A DNA stretch of 39,231 nt from a bacterium (GTDB lineage Bacteria > Fidelibacterota > Marinisomatia > Marinisomatales > JAHJCW01), in the NCBI GenBank assembly GCA_030606865.1, contig JAUWFQ010000004.1:1-39231 (forward strand), read 5' to 3'. A program made the position numbers and the translations under genes. Below are positions 28,698-39,231 of the stretch, piece by piece (within the stretch, counting starts at the first letter, position 1; every line of letters begins with the position of its first letter). The notes under the pieces are model-generated. The model was not told where the DNA came from. It did no database searches and worked only from the letters and a program-made list of their open reading frames with translations.

Positions 28698-29536
28698 TAC
28701 ATTGACCCCAGCCAGACAGCCAAAACACCGGCAATTGTACTAAGTTTTAGTAATTTTGCGACACGTTTTGCACTAGTAATTGTCGGAAATTTCATCATTG
28801 AAAATACAGTTATTACCAAAGGAATCTCAACGCCAAATAACACAAAAATTATATACCAATAATTATATGTGCCTATTACAAAAGGAATAATAGCACCGAT
28901 ACCAATAAGTATTGCAAAAACAGATACTAAAACCCAAGCTTTTTTCACACCTACTACAATTGGAAATGTTTTCAGCTTAGCTTTTTGGTCTCCTACCACA
29001 TCGCTAATATCCTTAACAAGTTCTCTTACAATTGTTAAACCAAAAGCTAATAATGCCGGTATTATCATTGCTTCCAAATTTTGTAAAGCAGCACCCGCGA
29101 ACAAAAATGTTAATCCCAAAATGAGTGAAATAATAAAGTTGCCCGCTAAAGGCATACCTTTAAACCAGATACTGTAAAATATCATCATAGGTAACGCAAT
29201 CGCAACTGCGATAAAAGTAGCCGTGAATGGTAATATAAAGGCTAAGACGGTACCGATAATAAATAAAATAATAGCTAAGAATAATGCAGTTTGTGGTTTT
29301 ACATCGCCTGTAACCAAGGGTCGATTTGGTTGATTGATTTTGTCGGTTTCTAAATCGAAGTAATCGTTTATTGCGTTGGCAGCAGCATTATAACAAACCA
29401 CAACGATTAATGCGGTAAACCACACTGAGACCTTACCTGTTTGCTTTAAAATTGATGCGGTAATAATTACTGCAAAAGCACCAATGGTGAGGTTCAAAGG
29501 ACGTAAAATTATTATATGCGCGATTAGTTTCTTCAT
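28697..29536 (-). CDS. UbiA-family prenyltransferase, geranylgeranylglycerol-phosphate geranylgeranyltransferase-like
   Basis: 279-residue integral membrane enzyme with about eight to nine transmembrane helices. The two Asp-rich prenyl-diphosphate/Mg sites are intact: NDYFDLETD (57-65) and DISDVVGD (176-183). The run DKINQPNRPLVTG and the RELVKD..GD...KTFPIVVG pattern resemble the UbiA subgroup annotated as digeranylgeranylglyceryl phosphate synthase more than UbiA (4-hydroxybenzoate) or MenA, but I cannot place it by alignment here. Either a polyprenyl lipid or a quinone precursor may be the product. It overlaps prmC by four bases and dnaE by one, so it is embedded in a coupled operon of unrelated functions. 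Confidence 0.82.
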   Translation of the reverse strand: MKKLIAHIIILRPLNLTIGAFAVIITASILKQTGKVSVWFTALIVVVCYNAAANAINDYFDLETDKINQPNRPLVTGDVKPQTALFLAIILFIIGTVLAFILPFTATFIAVAIALPMMIFYSIWFKGMPLAGNFIISLILGLTFLFAGAALQNLEAMIIPALLAFGLTIVRELVKDISDVVGDQKAKLKTFPIVVGVKKAWVLVSVFAILIGIGAIIPFVIGTYNYWYIIFVLFGVEIPLVITVFSMMKFPTITSAKRVAKLLKLSTIAGVLAVWLGSM

Positions 29537-30411
29537 ACAACTTGAGCTATTAATACACGATCATCACTGTTATAATCTTTAATTAATTCAACATTTTTAA
29601 ATTTATCATTCGAAAATATTTGCATAGCTTTTTTAGGATGTTCACCTAAACCGACCTCAAGAAAAAGCCAACCCTTCAAGTTTATTATTTTTTTACTTAT
29701 TTCCGAAATTTTATGGTAAAAAATTAATCCATTTGCTGAATCTGTTAAAGCAGAATTAGGTTCAAAATTCTTTACATCCGGCATCAATGATTCTATTTCT
29801 TTTTGAGGAATATAGGGGGGGTTGGAGATAACAACATCATATTTCCCTTCAATTCTATTTTTAAATAAATCAAGTTGTGAAAAAATTACATTTCCAATTT
29901 TCAACGTTTTAGCATTTAATTGCGCTACTTCAATTGCTTTAATTGAATTGTCAATGCCTGTAATTTTTGCGTTCGGTAATTCTTGACCCAAAGCTAATGC
30001 CAAACAACCAGAACCTGTTCCTATATCTAATATTGAAATATTTTTATTTTTACCTATGGTTTCTATAAGCACATCAATCAACTTTTCGCTCTCGGGGCGA
30101 GGGATCAATACGTCAGGTGTTACCTTGAGTATCAAATTATAGAATCCGGCTTTGCCGGTTATATATTGTATCGGTTCCCGATTTTTTCTCCGTTGCACCC
30201 ATTCTCTAAGTTTTACAAGTTGTAGTTTTGCGATTGTTTCTTCAAATCGTAGATATAGGTCAACCCGGCTGCATTCCAAAATATCCTGAAGTAATAGTTC
30301 TATTTCCTTACGTGGATTATCAAAATCATTATCAGAAAAATATTGCTCACCCCATTTTATAAGGTCAATCACCCGCCAAATTTTCTGTGAATTGCGGGCG
30401 GTGGGTATCAA
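29533..30411 (-). CDS. prmC: Peptide chain release factor N5-glutamine methyltransferase
   Basis: Methylates the glutamine of the release-factor GGQ motif. 292 residues: N-terminal helical domain (19-90, ending in REPIQYITGKAGFYNL), a beta hairpin with TPDVLIPRPESEKL, SAM-binding LDIGTGSGCLALALG (128-142) and the catalytic NPPY (197-200). Its target, prfA, is directly upstream. The start is a TTG immediately after the prfA stop (TAATTG), preceded by an SD-like AAAGGCGAA inside prfA; a GTG 13 codons later is less well supported. Confidence 0.95.
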   Translation of the reverse strand: MIPTARNSQKIWRVIDLIKWGEQYFSDNDFDNPRKEIELLLQDILECSRVDLYLRFEETIAKLQLVKLREWVQRRKNREPIQYITGKAGFYNLILKVTPDVLIPRPESEKLIDVLIETIGKNKNISILDIGTGSGCLALALGQELPNAKITGIDNSIKAIEVAQLNAKTLKIGNVIFSQLDLFKNRIEGKYDVVISNPPYIPQKEIESLMPDVKNFEPNSALTDSANGLIFYHKISEISKKIINLKGWLFLEVGLGEHPKKAMQIFSNDKFKNVELIKDYNSDDRVLIAQVV

Positions 30412-31473
30412 TTATTCGCCTTTTAGACTTTCTTGCTGTTCGGCAATACGCAATTGGTCTATCATTTCAGAAATGTCACCATCTAGCATCGCTTCGAGTT
30501 GATATGCAGTATAATTAATACGATGATCAGTGATGCGCCCTTGCGGAAAATTATAGGTCCGTATCTTTGCGGATCGGTCTCCGGTAGAAACCAAAGTTTT
30601 GCGTTCTTTTGCACGCTCGGAAGCAATTCTTTCTTCCTCCGCAGCAAGCAAACGTGAACGTAATACTTTCAACGCAGAGGCACGATTTTTATGCTGAGAG
30701 CTTTCATCCTGACAGGTAACTACTAAACCAGTTGGAAGATGAGTTATACGAATAGCGGATTCAGTTTTATTTACATGCTGACCTCCGGCTCCACTTGCAC
30801 GATAAGTATCAATCTTGAGATCTTCATTGCGTACTTCAATATCTGCTTCTTCAGCTTCCGGCAAAATAGCAACGGTAGCAGCTGAGGTGTGAACTCTGCC
30901 ACTAGCCTCAGTCTTTGGCACACGCTGTACTCGGTGAACACCACTTTCGTACTTCATCTTGCCATAAGCACCTTTACCAGCTACAGAAAATACAATTTCC
31001 TTAAATCCGCCAATACCGGTACCATTGGCATCCATAACATGATATTGCCAATTGGATCGTTCGGCAAAACGTGAATACATTCTAAATAGATCTGAAACGA
31101 ACAGAGCTGCTTCATCCCCTCCGGTACCGGCTCGTATTTCAACGATTATATTTTTATCATCATTCGAATCTTTTGGTATAAGCAATATTTTTAACTTTTC
31201 CTCACACTTCTGAAGTTCTAGTTCAGTATTTGGCAAATCGTCTTTGGCAATTTCTTTTAACTCTTCATCATCGCCACTCAGTATATCTTGATATTCTTCA
31301 ACCTGCTTATTAAGAGCAACATACTCTCTCGCTTGATTTACTATATCTTCTATTGAGCTGCGCTCTTTAGAAATTTCGATGACTTTTGAATTATCGGCAA
31401 GGATTTCAGGATCAGTCAATGATTTTTCAAGCGCTTCGAAACGGTTAATTATTTGCTGTAGTTTTTTTATCAT
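30412..31473 (-). CDS. prfA: Peptide chain release factor 1
   Basis: Class I release factor for UAA/UAG. 353 residues, as usual. The peptidyl-tRNA hydrolysis loop GAGGQHVN has GGQ at 230-232, with Gln232 the PrmC target. The codon-recognition tripeptide PxT is PKT (186-188, [14 protein letters not shown]); RF1 rather than RF2 follows from this and from the absence of SPF and of any programmed frameshift. N-terminal helical domain 1-100. Its ATG overlaps the DUF1385 stop by four bases. Confidence 0.97.
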
Positions 31474-32411
31474 CCGATTGCTTCTGCTACATATTTTTTA
31501 CCGATGACATCTTTATATCTGTCACCGAATGCTGACTTTAATGATTCAATCGCCACTTCTACCATTTCATCTTCCGGTTCTTTGGTGGTGATATGTTGTA
31601 ACCATAATCCCGGCGCTCTTAGCATACGGAAGATTATATTATCGCCATTGCGGGCGCTAATTTTTAATACTTCATAGCCGATACCGGCTACTAAGGGCAT
31701 CATCAGCAAATGTAATAGGATTCTTGAAACAACGGTAAGACTACCAAAAAAACCTATAAAAACAGTGTCGATTACCGAGAAAATAAGTATAGCTGAAATC
31801 ATTACAATAAATAAAAAACTTGTTCCACAACGCGGGTGTTGAGTTGGAAAAGATTGAGCATTTTTTACTGTAACTGCCTTACCTGATTCAAAATTATATA
31901 CAACGCGGTGTTCTGCTCCGTGATATTGAAAAAGTCTTTTCACGTCTTTCATAAATGATATTAAAACTAAGTACAATATGAAAAAGGCAATCCGAAAAAA
32001 ACCGGCTATTAGATTGAACAAAAATGCATCCTTACTAACTAAAAACAATTTTGTTGTTATCCAATATGGTGCTGCCATAAAAAGTGCAAGTGCTAAAAGT
32101 ATTGCAGTAGAAGTAGTAAAAAATCCTGCCAATTTACCTGGTTCTTTCTTTTTATCTTTTTCCGGCGTGGCTATTTCGGCTGACCATTGTAATGTTCGCA
32201 TCCCCATTTTTAACGCTTCAAAAAGCGATATCATTCCACGCAGTACCGGTTTTTTCCATGTCTTGCTTTTTTCTGCCTTTGAGGTGAAATCATGCCTATC
32301 AATATGGATTGTTCCGTTCTCATCGCGGACAGCGGTCGCATATGCTCCTGGAACGCGCATCATCACACCTTCTATCACAGCTTGTCCACCAACCAAAATC
32401 GACGGTTTCAT
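31470..32411 (-). CDS. DUF1385 membrane protein
   Basis: About 313 residues. The family signature [14 protein letters not shown] stands near the N terminus, followed by [22 protein letters not shown], then four predicted membrane segments (about 95-115, 130-155, 195-225 and 230-250) with the conserved [15 protein letters not shown] and HPRCGTSF between them. Such proteins (YqhQ-like) commonly sit between rpmE and prfA/prmC, just as here; molecular function is unknown. I take the ATG at 32411 because the family starts only a few residues before GGQAV; an in-frame ATG at 32444 has a closely spaced GGAAG and is possible. Confidence 0.88.
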
Positions 32412-32496
32412 TAATGTATTAATTATAATATTTTTTATAAACATATCTTCCGCTTAATCTTTATCAATATAATCACTAACAATACTCAAAGATACA

Positions 32497-32547: not shown

Positions 32548-32757
32548 CTACTTAGCTTGGCGTTTTCCGTATTTTCTCTCAAATTTTTCGATTCTACCGG
32601 CAGTATCAACTAATTTTTGCTTACCGGAAAAGAACGGATGACAAACGTTACAAATATCAATCCGTTGATCGCCAATAGCACTATAAACCTTAAATGTATT
32701 ACCGCATGCACAACGCACGGTTCCAAGTTTGTATTCAGGATGTATTTTTTCTTTCAT
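32548..32757 (-). CDS. rpmE: Ribosomal protein L31, zinc-binding form
   Basis: Large-subunit ribosomal protein, 69 residues from the ATG at 32757, which is preceded by GGAG; an in-frame upstream start at 32778 would add seven atypical residues. MKEKIHPEY begins the family. The zinc cysteines C16, C18, C36 and C39 ([15 protein letters not shown]) are all present, so this is the C+ form, which serves as a zinc store in many bacteria. [25 protein letters not shown] is the usual C terminus. Confidence 0.97.
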
Positions 32758-32910
32758 CGATTCTCCGGTTCTATTCAATTACCATAATAAATAATTATAT
32801 AAAAATTCTCCGATTTACGGGGGCAGAGTTTAACGAAATAAAAATAAAAATCCTTGTAATATTTTATTAGCTGTATGATGAATATTGGTGTCACATTACA
32901 CAAAAATATT

Positions 32911-33027: not shown

Positions 33028-34242
33028 ATGAGCATTAGTCAAATCGCAAGAAGTCTTACTCCTTCCGCTACATTAAAACTAAATGAAAAAGCCACAATTT
33101 TGCGCCAGAAAGGCGATCCGGTTATTCATTTAGGTGGTGGAGAACCTAAAAGCAAAGCTCCTTTTGATGCTATTTTAGCAACTACCGGATTGTTAGATTC
33201 GGGAGAAATTAGATATTCTCCTCCAGATGGTACTGTAGCGATGAAAAAAGCAATTATCCGTTATACGGAAGAACACTACAATCGCTTAGTCGAACCTCGA
33301 CAAATCATTGCATCTAACGGTGCTAAACAGTCAATCATGGTAGCCTTGCAAGCTATTCTAAATCCCCACGAAGAAGTTATTTTCCCAACTCCCTATTGGG
33401 TGAGTTATCCTGATATGGTAAAACTTTGTCAGGGCGTACCGATATCTGTTTTACCCGAAGATGGAACATTTTATCCAAAAATATCTGATATAGAAGAGAA
33501 TGTAGGTTCTTACACAAAAGCAGTTATAATTAACAGTCCCAACAATCCGACCGGAGCTGCTTATTCTGAAGAATTTATTTCTGATATCATTGATTTTTGC
33601 AAAAAACGAGATTTATATCTAATAATGGATGATATTTATAATCGTTTAGTCTTTGATAACCGCAAACCAAGCAATTGTTTCGACTATATAAAGGAATTTG
33701 GTGATAACTCCAAGTTCATTTTAATCAATGGAGTATCAAAACAATATGCCATGACTGGGTTCAGAATTGGTTGGGCAATTGGTAATAAAAATCTAATAGA
33801 AGTAATGACAAATATTCAAAGTCATCAAACTTCGGGACCGCCGACGATATCGCAAAAAGCGGCTATAGGAGCAATAAATGGTGTTCAATCTTCAGTTGAA
33901 AATCTTCGAGAAGCATTAGAAAACCGAAGAAATATTATGATTGACAATCTGAATTCATTTGATGGACTAAAAGTAACAAAGCCAGATGGCACATTTTATT
34001 GCTTCGTAGATTTTAGCCATTATAATCCCAACTCCGTTGAACTATCAGAATTGCTCCTTGATAAAGTACAAGTTATAACAGTCCCCGGCTTGGCCTTTGG
34101 CCTTGATGGATATTTACGATTGAGTTATTGTGGGGGAGTAAATGATATAAGAGAAGGAATTGAAAGGATTCAGTGGGTACTCGATCCTGATGCTCCTAAT
34201 GAATTATACATTGGTGAACGTAAATTAGTGAGGGACTGGTAA
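33028..34242 (+). CDS. Class I/II aminotransferase, aspartate aminotransferase-like
   Basis: PLP-dependent aminotransferase of the aspartate aminotransferase I-gamma kind, predicted to interconvert aspartate and oxaloacetate with glutamate/2-oxoglutarate. 404 residues with IHLGGGEP..., the PLP-contact SNGAKQSI (96-103), the NSPNNPTGA motif (169-177), MDDIYNRL, the Schiff-base Lys238 in NGVSKQYAMTGFRIGW and the C-terminal LRLSYCGG, which carries the substrate-carboxylate arginine. The stop overlaps the ATG of pckA by one base, coupling it to oxaloacetate metabolism. Confidence 0.9.
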   Translation: MSISQIARSLTPSATLKLNEKATILRQKGDPVIHLGGGEPKSKAPFDAILATTGLLDSGEIRYSPPDGTVAMKKAIIRYTEEHYNRLVEPRQIIASNGAKQSIMVALQAILNPHEEVIFPTPYWVSYPDMVKLCQGVPISVLPEDGTFYPKISDIEENVGSYTKAVIINSPNNPTGAAYSEEFISDIIDFCKKRDLYLIMDDIYNRLVFDNRKPSNCFDYIKEFGDNSKFILINGVSKQYAMTGFRIGWAIGNKNLIEVMTNIQSHQTSGPPTISQKAAIGAINGVQSSVENLREALENRRNIMIDNLNSFDGLKVTKPDGTFYCFVDFSHYNPNSVELSELLLDKVQVITVPGLAFGLDGYLRLSYCGGVNDIREGIERIQWVLDPDAPNELYIGERKLVRDW

Positions 34243-35891
34243 TGAGTAAATATTTAAAAATCAAATCGCCCGCTGCTAATCAGGCACGTACTTTAGCATC
34301 AAGTTATGGACTTACTAATCACGGCTTAAAACATCTTGATACAGTCTATTGGAACCTTTCAACACCAGCTTTATATGAAGAGATAATTTTTAGAAGTGAA
34401 GGTAGTATTGTAAATCAAGGTCCTGTTTCAGTAAATACAGGTAAACACTCAGCTCGTGCGGCCAATGATAAATTTGTCGTACAAGAAGATACAACAATTG
34501 ATGATATTTGGTGGGGCGATTATAATCGTCCAATAAGCCCTGAAAAATTTAACACAATACTTACGCGTGCTCAATCTTATGTACAAGGAGATGATCTATT
34601 CGTCCAAGATTGCTATGCCGGCAATGACCCAAATTATCGATTACCTGTACGAATAATCACTGAACATGCCTGGCAAAGTTTATTTGCTCGTAATATGCTT
34701 ATCACGACCACCAATCAAGATGAATTGAAACACTTTATACCTGAATTTACAATAATAACACTTCCCGGATTTAAAGTAGATCCAAAAATTGATGGTACAA
34801 ATAGTAGTACAACTATTGTGTTAAATTTTGCAGAGAGGGTCGCTATTATTGCTAATTCACTTTATGGTGGCGAAATTAAAAAATCAGTTTTTACCGTCTT
34901 AAATTTTTTACTCACTTTTCGCGACGTTTTGCCGATGCATTGTTCTGCAAATGTAGGAAAAAAGAATGATGCTGCCCTCTTTTTCGGACTAAGCGGAACC
35001 GGTAAAACTACCCTTTCAGCTGATCCTAATCGTTTTCTTATCGGAGATGATGAACATGGATGGTCTGCAGATGGCATTTTTAACTTTGAAGGTGGTTGCT
35101 ACGCAAAAGTTATTCGGTTATCGGCAGAACATGAACCGGAAATTTACGCATGTACCAAAAAATTTGGTTCAGTATTAGAAAATGTTGTATTTGATGAAGT
35201 AAATCGAAAGATCGACCTAGATGATGATGTCTATACTGAAAACACTAGAATTTCATATCCATTGCACTACATTCCCAATACAGTGCCGGAAGGTATGGTT
35301 AACTCTCATCCGAAGAATATAATATTCTTAACCTGTGATGCTTCTGGTGTGATGCCGCCAATTGCACGTCTAAGTCCCGAGCAAGCTCAATACCACTTCA
35401 TAAGCGGATACACTTCAAAGGTAGCTGGTACAGAGATAGGTTTGGGAATTGAGCCCAAAATCACTTTTAGTGCCTGTTTTGGCGCACCCTTCATGGTGCG
35501 ACACCCCTCCGTATATGCCGCGATGCTTAAAGAGCGTATGCATAAACACCATGCCCAGTGCTGGTTAGTAAATACCGGATGGGTTGGTGGTCGCTTTGGC
35601 GTTGGTAAACGTATTAGTATTCACCATACTAGAAATTTACTCAATGCCGCATTGGATGGTAAACTTGATAAGGTTAAGTTTCGCAAAGATAAACTATTTG
35701 GATTCGAAGTTCCATTATCCTGCCCGGACGTTCCTGAGGATATATTAGAACCGTCAAATTCATGGGGAGACAGCAAAGATTATTGGAAAAAATATGATTC
35801 TTTAGCAGCTCGCTTTAATCAAAATTTTAAGCTGTTTGCGAATAAATGTTCTCAACCTGTTATTGACGCTGGGCCAAAAAGACTAAAATAA
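34242..35891 (+). CDS. pckA: Phosphoenolpyruvate carboxykinase (ATP)
   Basis: Converts oxaloacetate and ATP to phosphoenolpyruvate, CO2 and ADP in gluconeogenesis. 549 residues, in the normal range. Kinase-1a P-loop GLSGTGKTTLSA (249-260), kinase-2 motif IGDDEHGW (267-274) with the metal-binding Asp269/Asp270, and the oxaloacetate-binding region SVNTGKHSARAANDKF. The ATP rather than GTP type is shown by the P-loop and length. Overlap with the aspartate aminotransferase gene suggests a joint aspartate-oxaloacetate-PEP route. It converges on the Cas6b-like gene, with 38 bases between. Confidence 0.97.
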   Translation: MSKYLKIKSPAANQARTLASSYGLTNHGLKHLDTVYWNLSTPALYEEIIFRSEGSIVNQGPVSVNTGKHSARAANDKFVVQEDTTIDDIWWGDYNRPISPEKFNTILTRAQSYVQGDDLFVQDCYAGNDPNYRLPVRIITEHAWQSLFARNMLITTTNQDELKHFIPEFTIITLPGFKVDPKIDGTNSSTTIVLNFAERVAIIANSLYGGEIKKSVFTVLNFLLTFRDVLPMHCSANVGKKNDAALFFGLSGTGKTTLSADPNRFLIGDDEHGWSADGIFNFEGGCYAKVIRLSAEHEPEIYACTKKFGSVLENVVFDEVNRKIDLDDDVYTENTRISYPLHYIPNTVPEGMVNSHPKNIIFLTCDASGVMPPIARLSPEQAQYHFISGYTSKVAGTEIGLGIEPKITFSACFGAPFMVRHPSVYAAMLKERMHKHHAQCWLVNTGWVGGRFGVGKRISIHHTRNLLNAALDGKLDKVKFRKDKLFGFEVPLSCPDVPEDILEPSNSWGDSKDYWKKYDSLAARFNQNFKLFANKCSQPVIDAGPKRLK

Positions 35892-35929: not shown

Positions 35930-36913
35930 TCACACTGTGTGCTGTTTTTTATGATAATCTACTGTGTTGAAATTATTGTCTAATGGAATTTTGGGAGTTT
36001 CCTTTTTCTCTTGAGGTTTTCTTTTCGGTTTAGTTTTTATTTTTTTTACCGATTTTTCCTCAATCTCATACTCTTCTGATAATACCTTTTTAACTTTACC
36101 TTTTCCCTTGTTAACCGCACTCTTCGATTTTCTACGGGGTTTTGGTACATTTTTAACTTTTACGCTCTGTAAAGTATCATCATCTTCGATAATATTTGTA
36201 GGTTTATTATCTATTACCTCCGGGTTGAGAATATCTTCATCAAACTTAAAATCTTGCGGATTATATAAACCATGGATTGCACCATAACCACGGGTAATTC
36301 CATTGCCCAGGCCAATATAATTTGGTAATACAAAATTAGTTTGGAATTCACCTGAGAAGGAACCCCAATTATTCTCATAAACCGGTTTTGGAAATATAGA
36401 ATTGAGTTTTAACTTAGTATACACTTTATCATTTAGATCAACACCCATTTCTCGCGCTAAAAACACAATATTTTGACCTAGTAAACGATTTAAAAATACT
36501 ATTCTGTCTTTATTTTTTAAAAATTTATAACGGTTTTGTGTATTCTTACTTAGCGCAATCCAGGGCGATACAAATCTATATCTGAGTAATTGATCGACAT
36601 GTTTAAATTGATTGATACTTTCTTCTATATCTATATCTAAAATGTTGAAAGTAATATTCCCGAAATTTAACAATTCAAAATCTTTAGTAATTGATAGTAC
36701 CGGATCTGCGCCTTCTTTGATACCAACTATATAAATCTGTTCATTCAGTATTTTAACTTGTACTCGTGGATACAAAAACTCGTCGCGATAACGACCATCC
36801 AACATTGGTATTACAGAGCTATTAGGGTATTGCTTCATAAAAACGCCCTTTACTTGGTAGGCAGTCTTTTTTACCGGTTTATCAGTTATTAATCGAGCTA
36901 CAATTGTCTTCAC
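35930..36913 (-). CDS. Orphan Cas6b-like RAMP protein with a long basic tail
   Basis: 327 residues. The first 220 follow the Cas6b layout: strand-rich N-terminal domain (FLYPRVQVKIL..QIYIVGIKEGADPVL, 46-73), then RYRFVSPWIALSKNTQNRYKFL (111-132), helical FLNRLLGQNIVFLAREMGV, and a final GEFQTNFVLPNYIGLGNGITRGYGAI (188-213) with the glycine-rich G-x-G-x5-G-x-G loop (201-211) of RAMP endonucleases. The position of the HxH catalytic pair before the YPRVQ strand is LDGR (38-41), and no histidine occurs before residue 105, so cleavage activity is doubtful. Residues 225-327 form a Lys/Arg-rich disordered tail. Start is GTG with upstream AAGGA. rho precedes it by 67 bases; no cas gene or array is present. 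Confidence 0.65.
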   Translation of the reverse strand: MKTIVARLITDKPVKKTAYQVKGVFMKQYPNSSVIPMLDGRYRDEFLYPRVQVKILNEQIYIVGIKEGADPVLSITKDFELLNFGNITFNILDIDIEESINQFKHVDQLLRYRFVSPWIALSKNTQNRYKFLKNKDRIVFLNRLLGQNIVFLAREMGVDLNDKVYTKLKLNSIFPKPVYENNWGSFSGEFQTNFVLPNYIGLGNGITRGYGAIHGLYNPQDFKFDEDILNPEVIDNKPTNIIEDDDTLQSVKVKNVPKPRRKSKSAVNKGKGKVKKVLSEEYEIEEKSVKKIKTKPKRKPQEKKETPKIPLDNNFNTVDYHKKQHTV

Positions 36914-36980
36914 AGATTGTAATCCTTGTGACTTTAATATAGATTAAAAATAAATTAAACTTAAACCAATAATTGCAATA

Positions 36981-38228
36981 TTATCGACTCATTGTATCCA
37001 TAAATTCATCATTGGTTTTTGTTCTCAACATCCTGTCGCGTATGAATTCCATCGCTTCAACTATTTTCATCTCGTTCAACAATTTACGCAAAATCCAAAT
37101 GCGACCTAAAACCTTTTTGGATAATAAAAGTTCTTCTTTTCTTGTCCCTGATCTAACAATATCGAAAGAGGGATAAAGTCTTCGGTCGCTTAACCTGCGA
37201 TCTAAAACTAATTCCATATTGCCGGTACCTTTAAATTCTTCAAAGATTACATCATCCATTCTACTACCTGTATCGACAAGCGCTGTGGCGATAATCGTTA
37301 ATGTTCCTCCTTCTTCAGTATTACGGGCAGCACCAAAAAATTGCTTAGGCTTTTTCAGCGCGTTTGAATCTACACCACCTGATAAAATTTTTCCACTATG
37401 TGGAATTACCGCATTGTGAGCTCGTGCTAAACGCGTAAGACTATCTAATAAAATTACAACATCTTCACCATACTCAGCCATTCTGCGAGCTTTTTGCAAA
37501 GCCATGTCTGCTACTGCGACATGCCGTTCTGGTGCTTCATCGAAAGTGGAACTTAATACTTCAGCATCAACGCTGCGTTTCATGTCTGTTACTTCTTCCG
37601 GTCGTTCATCAATTAACAGTATTATCATTTTTGTCTTAGGATGATTTCTTCTTATTGAGTTTGCTAATTGTTGTAGCAATATTGTTTTCCCGGTTTTGGG
37701 CTGTGCTACAATCATCCCTCTCTGACCTTTTCCAATCGGACAAATTAAATCCATAATCCGCATTGATAAATTCTTTTGATCAACTTCCAGATTGAATTTT
37801 TCATTGGGATGCAAAGGTGTAAGATTATCAAATAACATTACATTCCTAACATCTTCCGGTGGTCTATCATTTACCGTATCAACTTTTAATAAAGCATAGA
37901 ATCGTTCTTTTGATTTTGGTGGTCTTATTTGCCCCGCTACTTCATGACCTGTTTTAAGACCAAATCGTTTTATCTGTGACGGGCTAACATAAATATCGTT
38001 AGGTCCCGGTAAATAATTAGAATCTGGACTGCGTAAAAATCCATAACCATCCGGTAACACTTCTAAGGTACCACGGGAATAAAGTGCATCCTCCTCCTTT
38101 GCTTCGGCTTTTAAGATTTGTACAACTAGCTCCTGTTTGTTTAGCCCGGAAATACTTTCAATTTTTAGATCCTTGGCTACTTTTGTTAAGTCTTTAATCT
38201 TTAGGGATTGAAGTTCATTAACGTCCAT
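36981..38228 (-). CDS. rho: Transcription termination factor Rho
   Basis: RNA-dependent helicase ending transcription. 415 residues, the E. coli size, with no large insertion: N-terminal Rho_N helix bundle (6-45), cold-shock-like RNA-binding fold ([34 protein letters not shown] in parts, 53-86), Walker A AQPKTGKT (175-182), Walker [15 protein letters not shown] and the R-loop SGGVDSNAL, plus the arginine-finger region [11 protein letters not shown]. The Q-loop region LSGGVDS is standard. A Cas6b-like gene follows 67 bases on; the 90-base leader upstream holds a small GACG-AGTA-CGTC hairpin and is otherwise featureless. Confidence 0.98.
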
Positions 38229-38318
38229 TATAAATTATCCTTCGGTTTTTCAATTGATTAAAAATCTATAAATAAAAATCGTGTGACGAGTACGTCTTTT
38301 CGGTAACGCTAAATTACA

Positions 38319-39231
38319 TTAAATGATGCCATTGTCAAAGGAAAAACCGTACTCCTTATAAATTGTCTCTCCAATGTAATGACTACCAAAAATTATACCG
38401 GGAGTTGATTGAGTTACTACATTATTAATTATTTTTATTGCTTTTATTATATCTGGTTCTAATGTTGCTTTAATTCCAAATTTAATTAAAGAATTATACA
38501 AATCTTTAGCATCCATAAGTCCCGAATCCGGTTTGCTTGTTACTATTAAATCTCTAAATCTACACTTTAACTTCGGAACAATTTGTTCAAGTTCTTTATC
38601 CGCTTTTAAAGCTATCAGTCCTATTGGTTTTTTGTGATATATCGCAAATAATGAATCCAACAAAACTTGGATACCGTGCGCATTGTGGGCTACATCATAA
38701 TAAATCGGAAGTGTTTTATGCATCTTTTGTGTTCGGGCTGGCCACTGCACTTCTTTTAATCCAGTGATTGTTATATCAGAATTAATTCTACTGCTAAAAT
38801 ATTTTACTGCTTCAATTGCCAGCACTGCATTTCTTGCTTGATGTTCCCCAATCAGACAAGTTTCGTATTCTATTCCTTTCCAACTGAGCTTGGTTCCTGT
38901 TTCACTTATTCTTATGTTTTTTATATCATTTTGATTACAATATGTAACTTTCGCACTTTTTCTATCAGCTATTTCAAGTAGCACATTTTTTACTTCTTCG
39001 CTCTGCGATGATAGAATCAACGGTACATCTTTTTTAATAATGCCACCTTTTTCAAATGCAATAGTCATTAAATCATTCCCTAATATCTCAGTATGATCTG
39101 CAGTAATTGAAGAAATAACCGTAATCTTCGGTTTTAGAACATTAGTCGAGTCTAATCGCCCCCCTAAACCGGTTTCAACAACTGCCACATCTACCCTTTC
39201 CTTATTAAAATAATCAAACGCCATTGCCGAA
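38319..39231 (-). CDS. folC: Folylpolyglutamate/dihydrofolate synthase, 5' end beyond the window
   Basis: The C-terminal 303 or so residues of a Mur-ligase-fold enzyme that adds glutamate to folates. Reading in from the window edge, MAFDYFNKERVD precedes GLGGRLDSTN (22-31), the ITADHTEILG motif, ..EKGGIIK, GEHQARNAVLAIEAV and DVAHNAHG at the start of the C-terminal domain. The frame stays open to the last base, so the ATP-binding loop and true start are outside; the apparent methionine near 39224 is internal. It lies 90 bases from rho; neither is obviously linked to the other. Confidence 0.92.
   Translation of the reverse strand, partial: SAMAFDYFNKERVDVAVVETGLGGRLDSTNVLKPKITVISSITADHTEILGNDLMTIAFEKGGIIKKDVPLILSSQSEEVKNVLLEIADRKSAKVTYCNQNDIKNIRISETGTKLSWKGIEYETCLIGEHQARNAVLAIEAVKYFSSRINSDITITGLKEVQWPARTQKMHKTLPIYYDVAHNAHGIQVLLDSLFAIYHKKPIGLIALKADKELEQIVPKLKCRFRDLIVTSKPDSGLMDAKDLYNSLIKFGIKATLEPDIIKAIKIINNVVTQSTPGIIFGSHYIGETIYKEYGFSFDNGII

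Follow-up and report, generated by a model that had tools for sequence, protein, structure and literature searches.

A Cas6b gene settled directly behind rho, the gene for the transcription termination factor, in an ancestor shared by much of the phylum Candidatus Neomarinimicrobiota (Marinimicrobia, SAR406; now Fidelibacterota). It has been kept there mainly by vertical descent and under strong purifying selection, with both catalytic histidines lost. The rho-linked, histidine-less Cas6b is a phylum-wide branch and not a single orphan. The gene, referred to below as cas6L, was analyzed in a contig stretch of 39,231 nucleotides (the window), for which an earlier reading, made by a model from the letters alone (the sequence-only reading), had already singled it out. 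The open reading frame proposed there was recovered at its exact coordinates, on the minus strand, with a GTG start and 327 codons, and all of the sequence blocks quoted for it are present in the protein in the same order. The relevant parts of the gene are as follows:

35930..36913, minus strand: cas6L, Cas6b-like protein without catalytic histidines, 327 aa, GTG start
36266..36913, minus strand: Cas6b core (Cas6b_N plus Cas6b_C), residues 1-216, which occurs phylum-wide
36794..36805, minus strand: MLDG, residues 37-40, at the site of the Cas6b HNH catalytic histidines
36752..36772, minus strand: YPRVQVK block, residues 48-54
36275..36313, minus strand: glycine-rich loop GLGNGITRGYGAI, residues 201-213, retained
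35933..36265, minus strand: C-terminal tail, residues 217-327, mostly disordered, found in the window's order only
35939..35971, minus strand: C-terminal motif FNTVDYHKKQH, residues 315-325, kept in nearly all members of the order

The identification of cas6L as a Cas6b homologue, a member of the Cas6b domain family by descent, is secure, because Pfam, PADLOC and PDB matches and the fold all agree. The protein scored above the curated gathering cut-offs for both Pfam domains (Cas6b_C, PF17262, 8.1e-24; Cas6b_N, PF17955, 6.1e-9), matched the PADLOC Cas6b model at 1.4e-38, and matched M. maripaludis Cas6b (4z7k, 4.6e-25) among PDB sequences; a search of NCBIfam yielded no matching model. In an AlphaFold2 model made from 59 orthologues, the core was mostly predicted at pLDDT >90, and residues 271-312 were disordered. 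The top five Foldseek matches of this model were all Cas6b chains, the best being 4z7k (E 1.6e-17, TM 0.80 normalised to the target). Thus, the fold prediction for which the sequence-only reading had called gives Cas6b, as did its own inspection of the letters. Both Pfam domains were also above cut-off in 9/9 divergent rho-linked members tested.

Two histidines have been implicated in catalysis by M. maripaludis Cas6b (PMC3652601). In a pairwise alignment, the segment IVHNHRDN of that enzyme, which contains H38 and H40 by residue count, lies opposite VIPM-LDG of cas6L, and the first histidine of cas6L is indeed residue 105, as the sequence-only reading had stated. We take H38 and H40 to be the two catalytic histidines. 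When 111 rho-linked homologues were aligned and a divergent class was set aside, the H40 column was gapped in 108/108 remaining sequences, and the H38 column was without any histidine. The loss of the catalytic pair, which the sequence-only reading had deduced from LDGR, is borne out across the rho-linked group; LDGR stands where the M. maripaludis enzyme has HNH. A wording such as “no histidine anywhere near” fails for some members, because certain copies from family f20 have a histidine four residues ahead of the H38 position. The most divergent rho-linked copies (L137, L139 and L141, family f25) have lost the YPR motif and carry HH or NH close to the N-terminus (SSHHFRAFML).

Rho-linked homologues have kept the glycine-rich loop as well as the YPxxQxK and PWxAL blocks, and G201, G203, G209, and G211 are conserved in rho-linked and CRISPR-type groups alike. 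Arg50 is present in 96% of rho-linked copies and absent from CRISPR-type copies in the alignment, i.e., it is specific to the rho-linked group. Position 204 is Asn in the rho-linked group and Lys or Arg in CRISPR copies, and the median core net charge is +4 in the former versus +7 to +13 in the latter. The lower core charge and Asn204 weaken the case for cas6L as a strong RNA binder.

The gene lies in a conserved cluster, the other members of which are placed in the window as follows:

36981..38228, minus strand: rho, transcription termination factor (Rho_N, Rho_RNA_bind, ATP-synt_ab)
36914..36980, minus strand: rho-cas6L intergenic region, 67 bp, with no terminator-like site on this strand
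38319..39224, minus strand: folC-like Mur ligase family gene, first in the conserved cluster, its 5' end perhaps cut by the window
33028..35891, plus strand: aminotransferase gene and pckA, between cas6L and rpmE in the window's genus
32548..32778, minus strand: rpmE, ribosomal protein L31, farther along the conserved cluster
29533..32444, minus strand: prmC, prfA and DUF1385, remainder of the rho-rpmE-prfA-prmC cluster

The neighbourhood with rho, which lies 67 bp upstream of cas6L on the same strand, had been pointed out before and is general: in 115/115 loci whose flanks reach rho, cas6L is the next gene after rho and has the same orientation. The gap between the two genes had a median of 31 bp in these loci, and the one gap that exceeded 97 bp (409 bp) is made up of a scaffold N run. 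The usual order of the cluster is folC-rho-cas6L-aminotransferase-rpmE-DUF1385-prfA-prmC. In the distant family f19 (L122, L123), the aminotransferase-pckA pair also adjoins cas6L; there the three genes share one strand, whereas in the window the pair runs opposite to cas6L. Two full folC-rho-cas6L-aminotransferase clusters were present in one assembly (G095:C13 and G095:C5; L045 and L046), which probably reflects mixed strains (5% contamination).

The possibility that cas6L replaces L31 in a rho-rpmE slot was rejected, since nearly all genomes have rpmE, farther along the cluster. A structured RNA element for autoregulation in the rho leader was also considered; the folding z-scores averaged -0.18 in 74 leaders from the order and +0.76 in 10 leaders from the class, and therefore give no signal of a conserved RNA structure that might serve as a target of cas6L. 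An Rfam search of the window produced no match. Order-wide, ~50-60 nt before rho (~38240-38330 in the window), a repeated TTGAC...TAATGTAATTT-like stretch leads into a C-rich segment; together they possibly form a promoter and a rut-like site through which Rho would regulate its own synthesis. In families f24 and f27, genomes with a normal rho also encode a second Rho-like protein that is shorter, lacks the N-terminal part and is 43-47% identical (G151:C15:916-1986, G152:C3:263227-264333 and G201:C51:97932-98936); no rho-linked cas6L was found in these groups.

Within the order, cas6L was detected in 99/130 genomes. The 31 genomes without it comprise 24 from the streamlined family f8 and seven with a completeness of 58-81%; one of these seven (G003) has no full rho match either. 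Among high-quality genomes of the order, 37/45 carry the gene; the eight without it all belong to f8, and outside f8 the count is 37/37. Outside the order, the gene recurs in several families, both in the same class and in other classes of the phylum, where identity to the window protein drops to 25-30% and the position behind rho is kept. In a profile scan, all of the best 80 of 183 relatives for which a phylum is stated belong to this phylum, and a broader profile, run on 40 genomes of non-carrying groups, returned only three hits, the known CRISPR-type copies. At least seven presence/absence changes of cas6L are needed on the rho tree, which was built by a quick method and is unrooted, so the direction of gain or loss is beyond proof; the nested distribution fits early presence and several losses. 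In several lineages without cas6L, folC, rho, and the aminotransferase gene (aspC) are still adjacent with nothing between them. With its presence changing and folC-rho-aspC kept without it, cas6L is dispensable for life with Rho.

The pairwise distances of cas6L and of rho are correlated (r = 0.78, Mantel 0/999; r = 0.52 within the order), and on the rho-linked side of the protein tree, branches match class, order and, largely, family. cas6L changes faster than its neighbour, with a mean identity within the order of 54% versus 78% for Rho. Between close pairs, dN/dS was 0.01-0.09 for the core residues and 0.08-0.20 for those of the tail. No viral relatives were found in an IMG/VR search. In one genome of the phylum, assembled as a single contig of 2,788,509 bp (G132; sampled GC 46.4%), the gene lies 12 bp behind rho, and neither a second Cas6b nor a Cas1 match was found. 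A cultured species of the phylum very probably still carries rho-linked cas6L; the isolate that gave the phylum its name is Fidelibacter multiformis IA91 (PMC11652737).

The window's assembly (2.03 Mb in 185 contigs, 91.6% complete) has a single Cas6b match, which is cas6L itself. Searches of this genome for Cas1, type III RAMP, Cas3-HD, Cas10, or a second Cas6b were negative, and named control genomes were positive in each cas family search. A scan of 398 kb of the assembly detected no array, although the same script does find arrays in L138 and L143, and no cas genes or arrays were found in the 39-kb window, in agreement with the sequence-only reading. That reading had named two observations that would speak against it, the lack of a Cas6 fold and type I or III cas genes elsewhere in the genome; the fold matches Cas6b, and the genome searches revealed no such cas genes. 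The search of related genomes that it had also suggested shows that rho and cas6L recur together, with a Cas1 match in 5/99 carriers of the order and none in 94/99. cas6L lacks two properties of a Cas6b crRNA endoribonuclease, the histidine pair and linkage to cas genes or an array (the array scan covering 398 kb).

Cas6b copies of the phylum located away from rho are different: HNH is present in 7/8 aligned and NNH in 1/8, and five CRISPR-type Cas6b genes share a contig with Cas1, at ~10 kb or less. The neighbours of the L142 copy (Cas8b, Cas7b, Cas5b, Cas3, and Cas1) make up a full type I-B locus. The genome that contains it (G136) has both kinds of Cas6b, the rho-linked one being at L129. 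In a tree of 41 rho-linked and nine CRISPR-type proteins, the two groups were split by a branch with 99/97 support. The Cas6b at L070:9941-10597 (G060) has NNH and occurs in a genome without a Cas1 match; its five upstream neighbours gave no PADLOC match, and it is possibly another orphan Cas6b, one that still bears a histidine.

The tail was described in the sequence-only reading as basic. This is true of the window's cas6L, in which the tail has a net charge of +8, but basicity is not a conserved property, because the net charge spans -14 to +20 across the order. The tail is ~114 residues long within the order; outside the order, the protein stops soon after the core. What is conserved is the C-terminal [FY]NxxxYHxKQH (FNxxxYHxKQH), together with a short post-core segment (~249-255), which the AlphaFold2 model docks at fair confidence; a KKVLSEEFDIEE-like block is present in the tail of many members. 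In 9/10 genomes scanned, the C-terminal motif occurred once per genome and in cas6L only (the tenth had no pattern match), and the idea that it is shared with other proteins was dropped, as no other bearer was found in those nine genomes.

The proposal of a role outside CRISPR immunity is well supported, as are the lack of any CRISPR found in the genome and the rho linkage at 115/115 loci, and there is very little doubt that cas6L is a domesticated, non-CRISPR protein. It probably binds RNA, and the balance is also in favour of its no longer cutting RNA. That it acts in the Rho pathway is a plausible but tentative proposal. Taken as a whole, we lean slightly towards an ancient domesticated non-CRISPR Cas6b that binds RNA, does not cut it, and operates in Rho-linked RNA metabolism; counted against this is that gene neighbourhood does not prove a shared function. 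cas6L would be co-transcribed with rho, as suggested by the short gap and by the lack of a terminator-like site in it, and its product would use the retained Cas6b core and glycine-rich loop to hold a cellular RNA, leaving this RNA uncut by the Cas6b histidine mechanism. Within the window's order, the FNxxxYHxKQH motif may dock the protein to a protein partner. The likeliest setting would be Rho-dependent termination of transcription, or the turnover of the resulting RNA 3' ends.

Several other explanations of the data were weighed. cas6L could still be an endoribonuclease, with a Lys/Arg network in place of the histidines and with cellular RNA, rather than CRISPR repeats, as its substrate. 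SsoCas6 cleaves without an active-site histidine, by means of basic residues (PMC3652601); K16, K22, R43, R50, and K54 of cas6L, being invariant in the 59-sequence order alignment, might form such a network, and the RNA-positioning loop is retained. However, both catalytic histidine positions of M. maripaludis Cas6b are lost uniformly throughout the phylum, and its K30 corresponds to a freely variable position. Lys22 is not a new catalytic residue, because the Arg aligned with it is conserved in CRISPR copies too. We consider a cutting cas6L unlikely. Distinctly unlikely, in our view, is a co-transcribed scaffold or ribosome-associated factor unrelated to Rho or RNA cutting, in which the Cas6 fold and the C-terminal motif would serve protein contacts. 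The wider rho-rpmE-prfA-prmC cluster, which combines termination and ribosome genes, the conserved, protein-specific tail motif, and a core less basic than that of CRISPR Cas6b would all agree with such a factor, yet the RNA-facing glycine loop and the YPxxQxK block are among the most conserved parts of the fold.

Processing of crRNA in trans, for a CRISPR system located elsewhere in the genome, has precedents in the trans-acting Cas6 known for type III systems (PMC12669027), and Cas1 is present in five genomes of the order. The absence of a Cas1 match in the 94 other carriers, of any tested cas family in the window's genome, and of arrays in the 398 kb scanned, as well as the fact that type I-B genomes have their own HNH Cas6b, make this very improbable. 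The patchy absence of the gene outside the order might suggest a gene in decay or one recently brought in by a mobile element; with core dN/dS values far below 1, a tree that matches taxonomy, distances that track rho, a fixed genomic position, and no relatives in IMG/VR, this is hardly credible.

With a Cas6b fold encoded behind rho in this uncultured marine bacterium and in the majority of its relatives, and with neither the catalytic histidines nor any CRISPR system, a part of an immune system has apparently turned to housekeeping. A more specific scenario, in which, before much of the phylum diversified, a CRISPR nuclease became an RNA-binding partner of Rho that no longer cuts and that shapes termination, is speculative. 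If true, it would add a Cas protein to the conserved parts of the core machinery of gene expression. A single Cas6 fixed behind rho phylum-wide, its active site gone in every aligned member, would clearly exemplify the entry of a Cas protein into housekeeping RNA metabolism. It raises the questions of which RNA cas6L holds and whether Rho-dependent termination changes without it. For annotation pipelines, the consequence is that a Cas6b match alone does not equal CRISPR presence. Descriptions of exapted CRISPR parts usually concern multi-gene modules that belong to mobile elements or to defence. In the open-access literature searched, subscription papers being outside the scope, no description of an orphan or repurposed Cas6, or of Cas6 in Marinimicrobia, was found.

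M. maripaludis Cas6b (4z7k, 4z7l) resembles cas6L in both domains, in fold (TMt 0.80), in the glycine-rich loop and the YPxxQxKI and PWxAL blocks, and in 24-26% sequence identity; cas6L differs in the lack of H38 and H40, in being rho-linked and not cas-linked, in its order-specific C-terminal tail, and in having a function that is not CRISPR. The type I-B Cas6b proteins of the same phylum (L142, L143, L071) belong to the same family, are 22-24% identical to cas6L, and co-occur with a rho-linked copy in some genomes, but they have kept HNH, are more basic, and, in the case of the L142 copy, the one checked closely, are surrounded by a complete type I-B operon. SsoCas6 of Sulfolobus solfataricus is, like cas6L, a Cas6-fold protein without an active-site histidine (PMC3652601), but it is a working crRNA nuclease of a CRISPR-bearing host, whereas no CRISPR was found in the genome that carries cas6L. 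Exapted CRISPR modules, such as cas5-cas6-cas7-cas8 with a STAND NTPase, also reuse CRISPR parts, but are multi-gene and tied to mobile elements or defence (PMC8730458), while cas6L is a single Cas6-like protein that resides in a housekeeping cluster and is inherited vertically.
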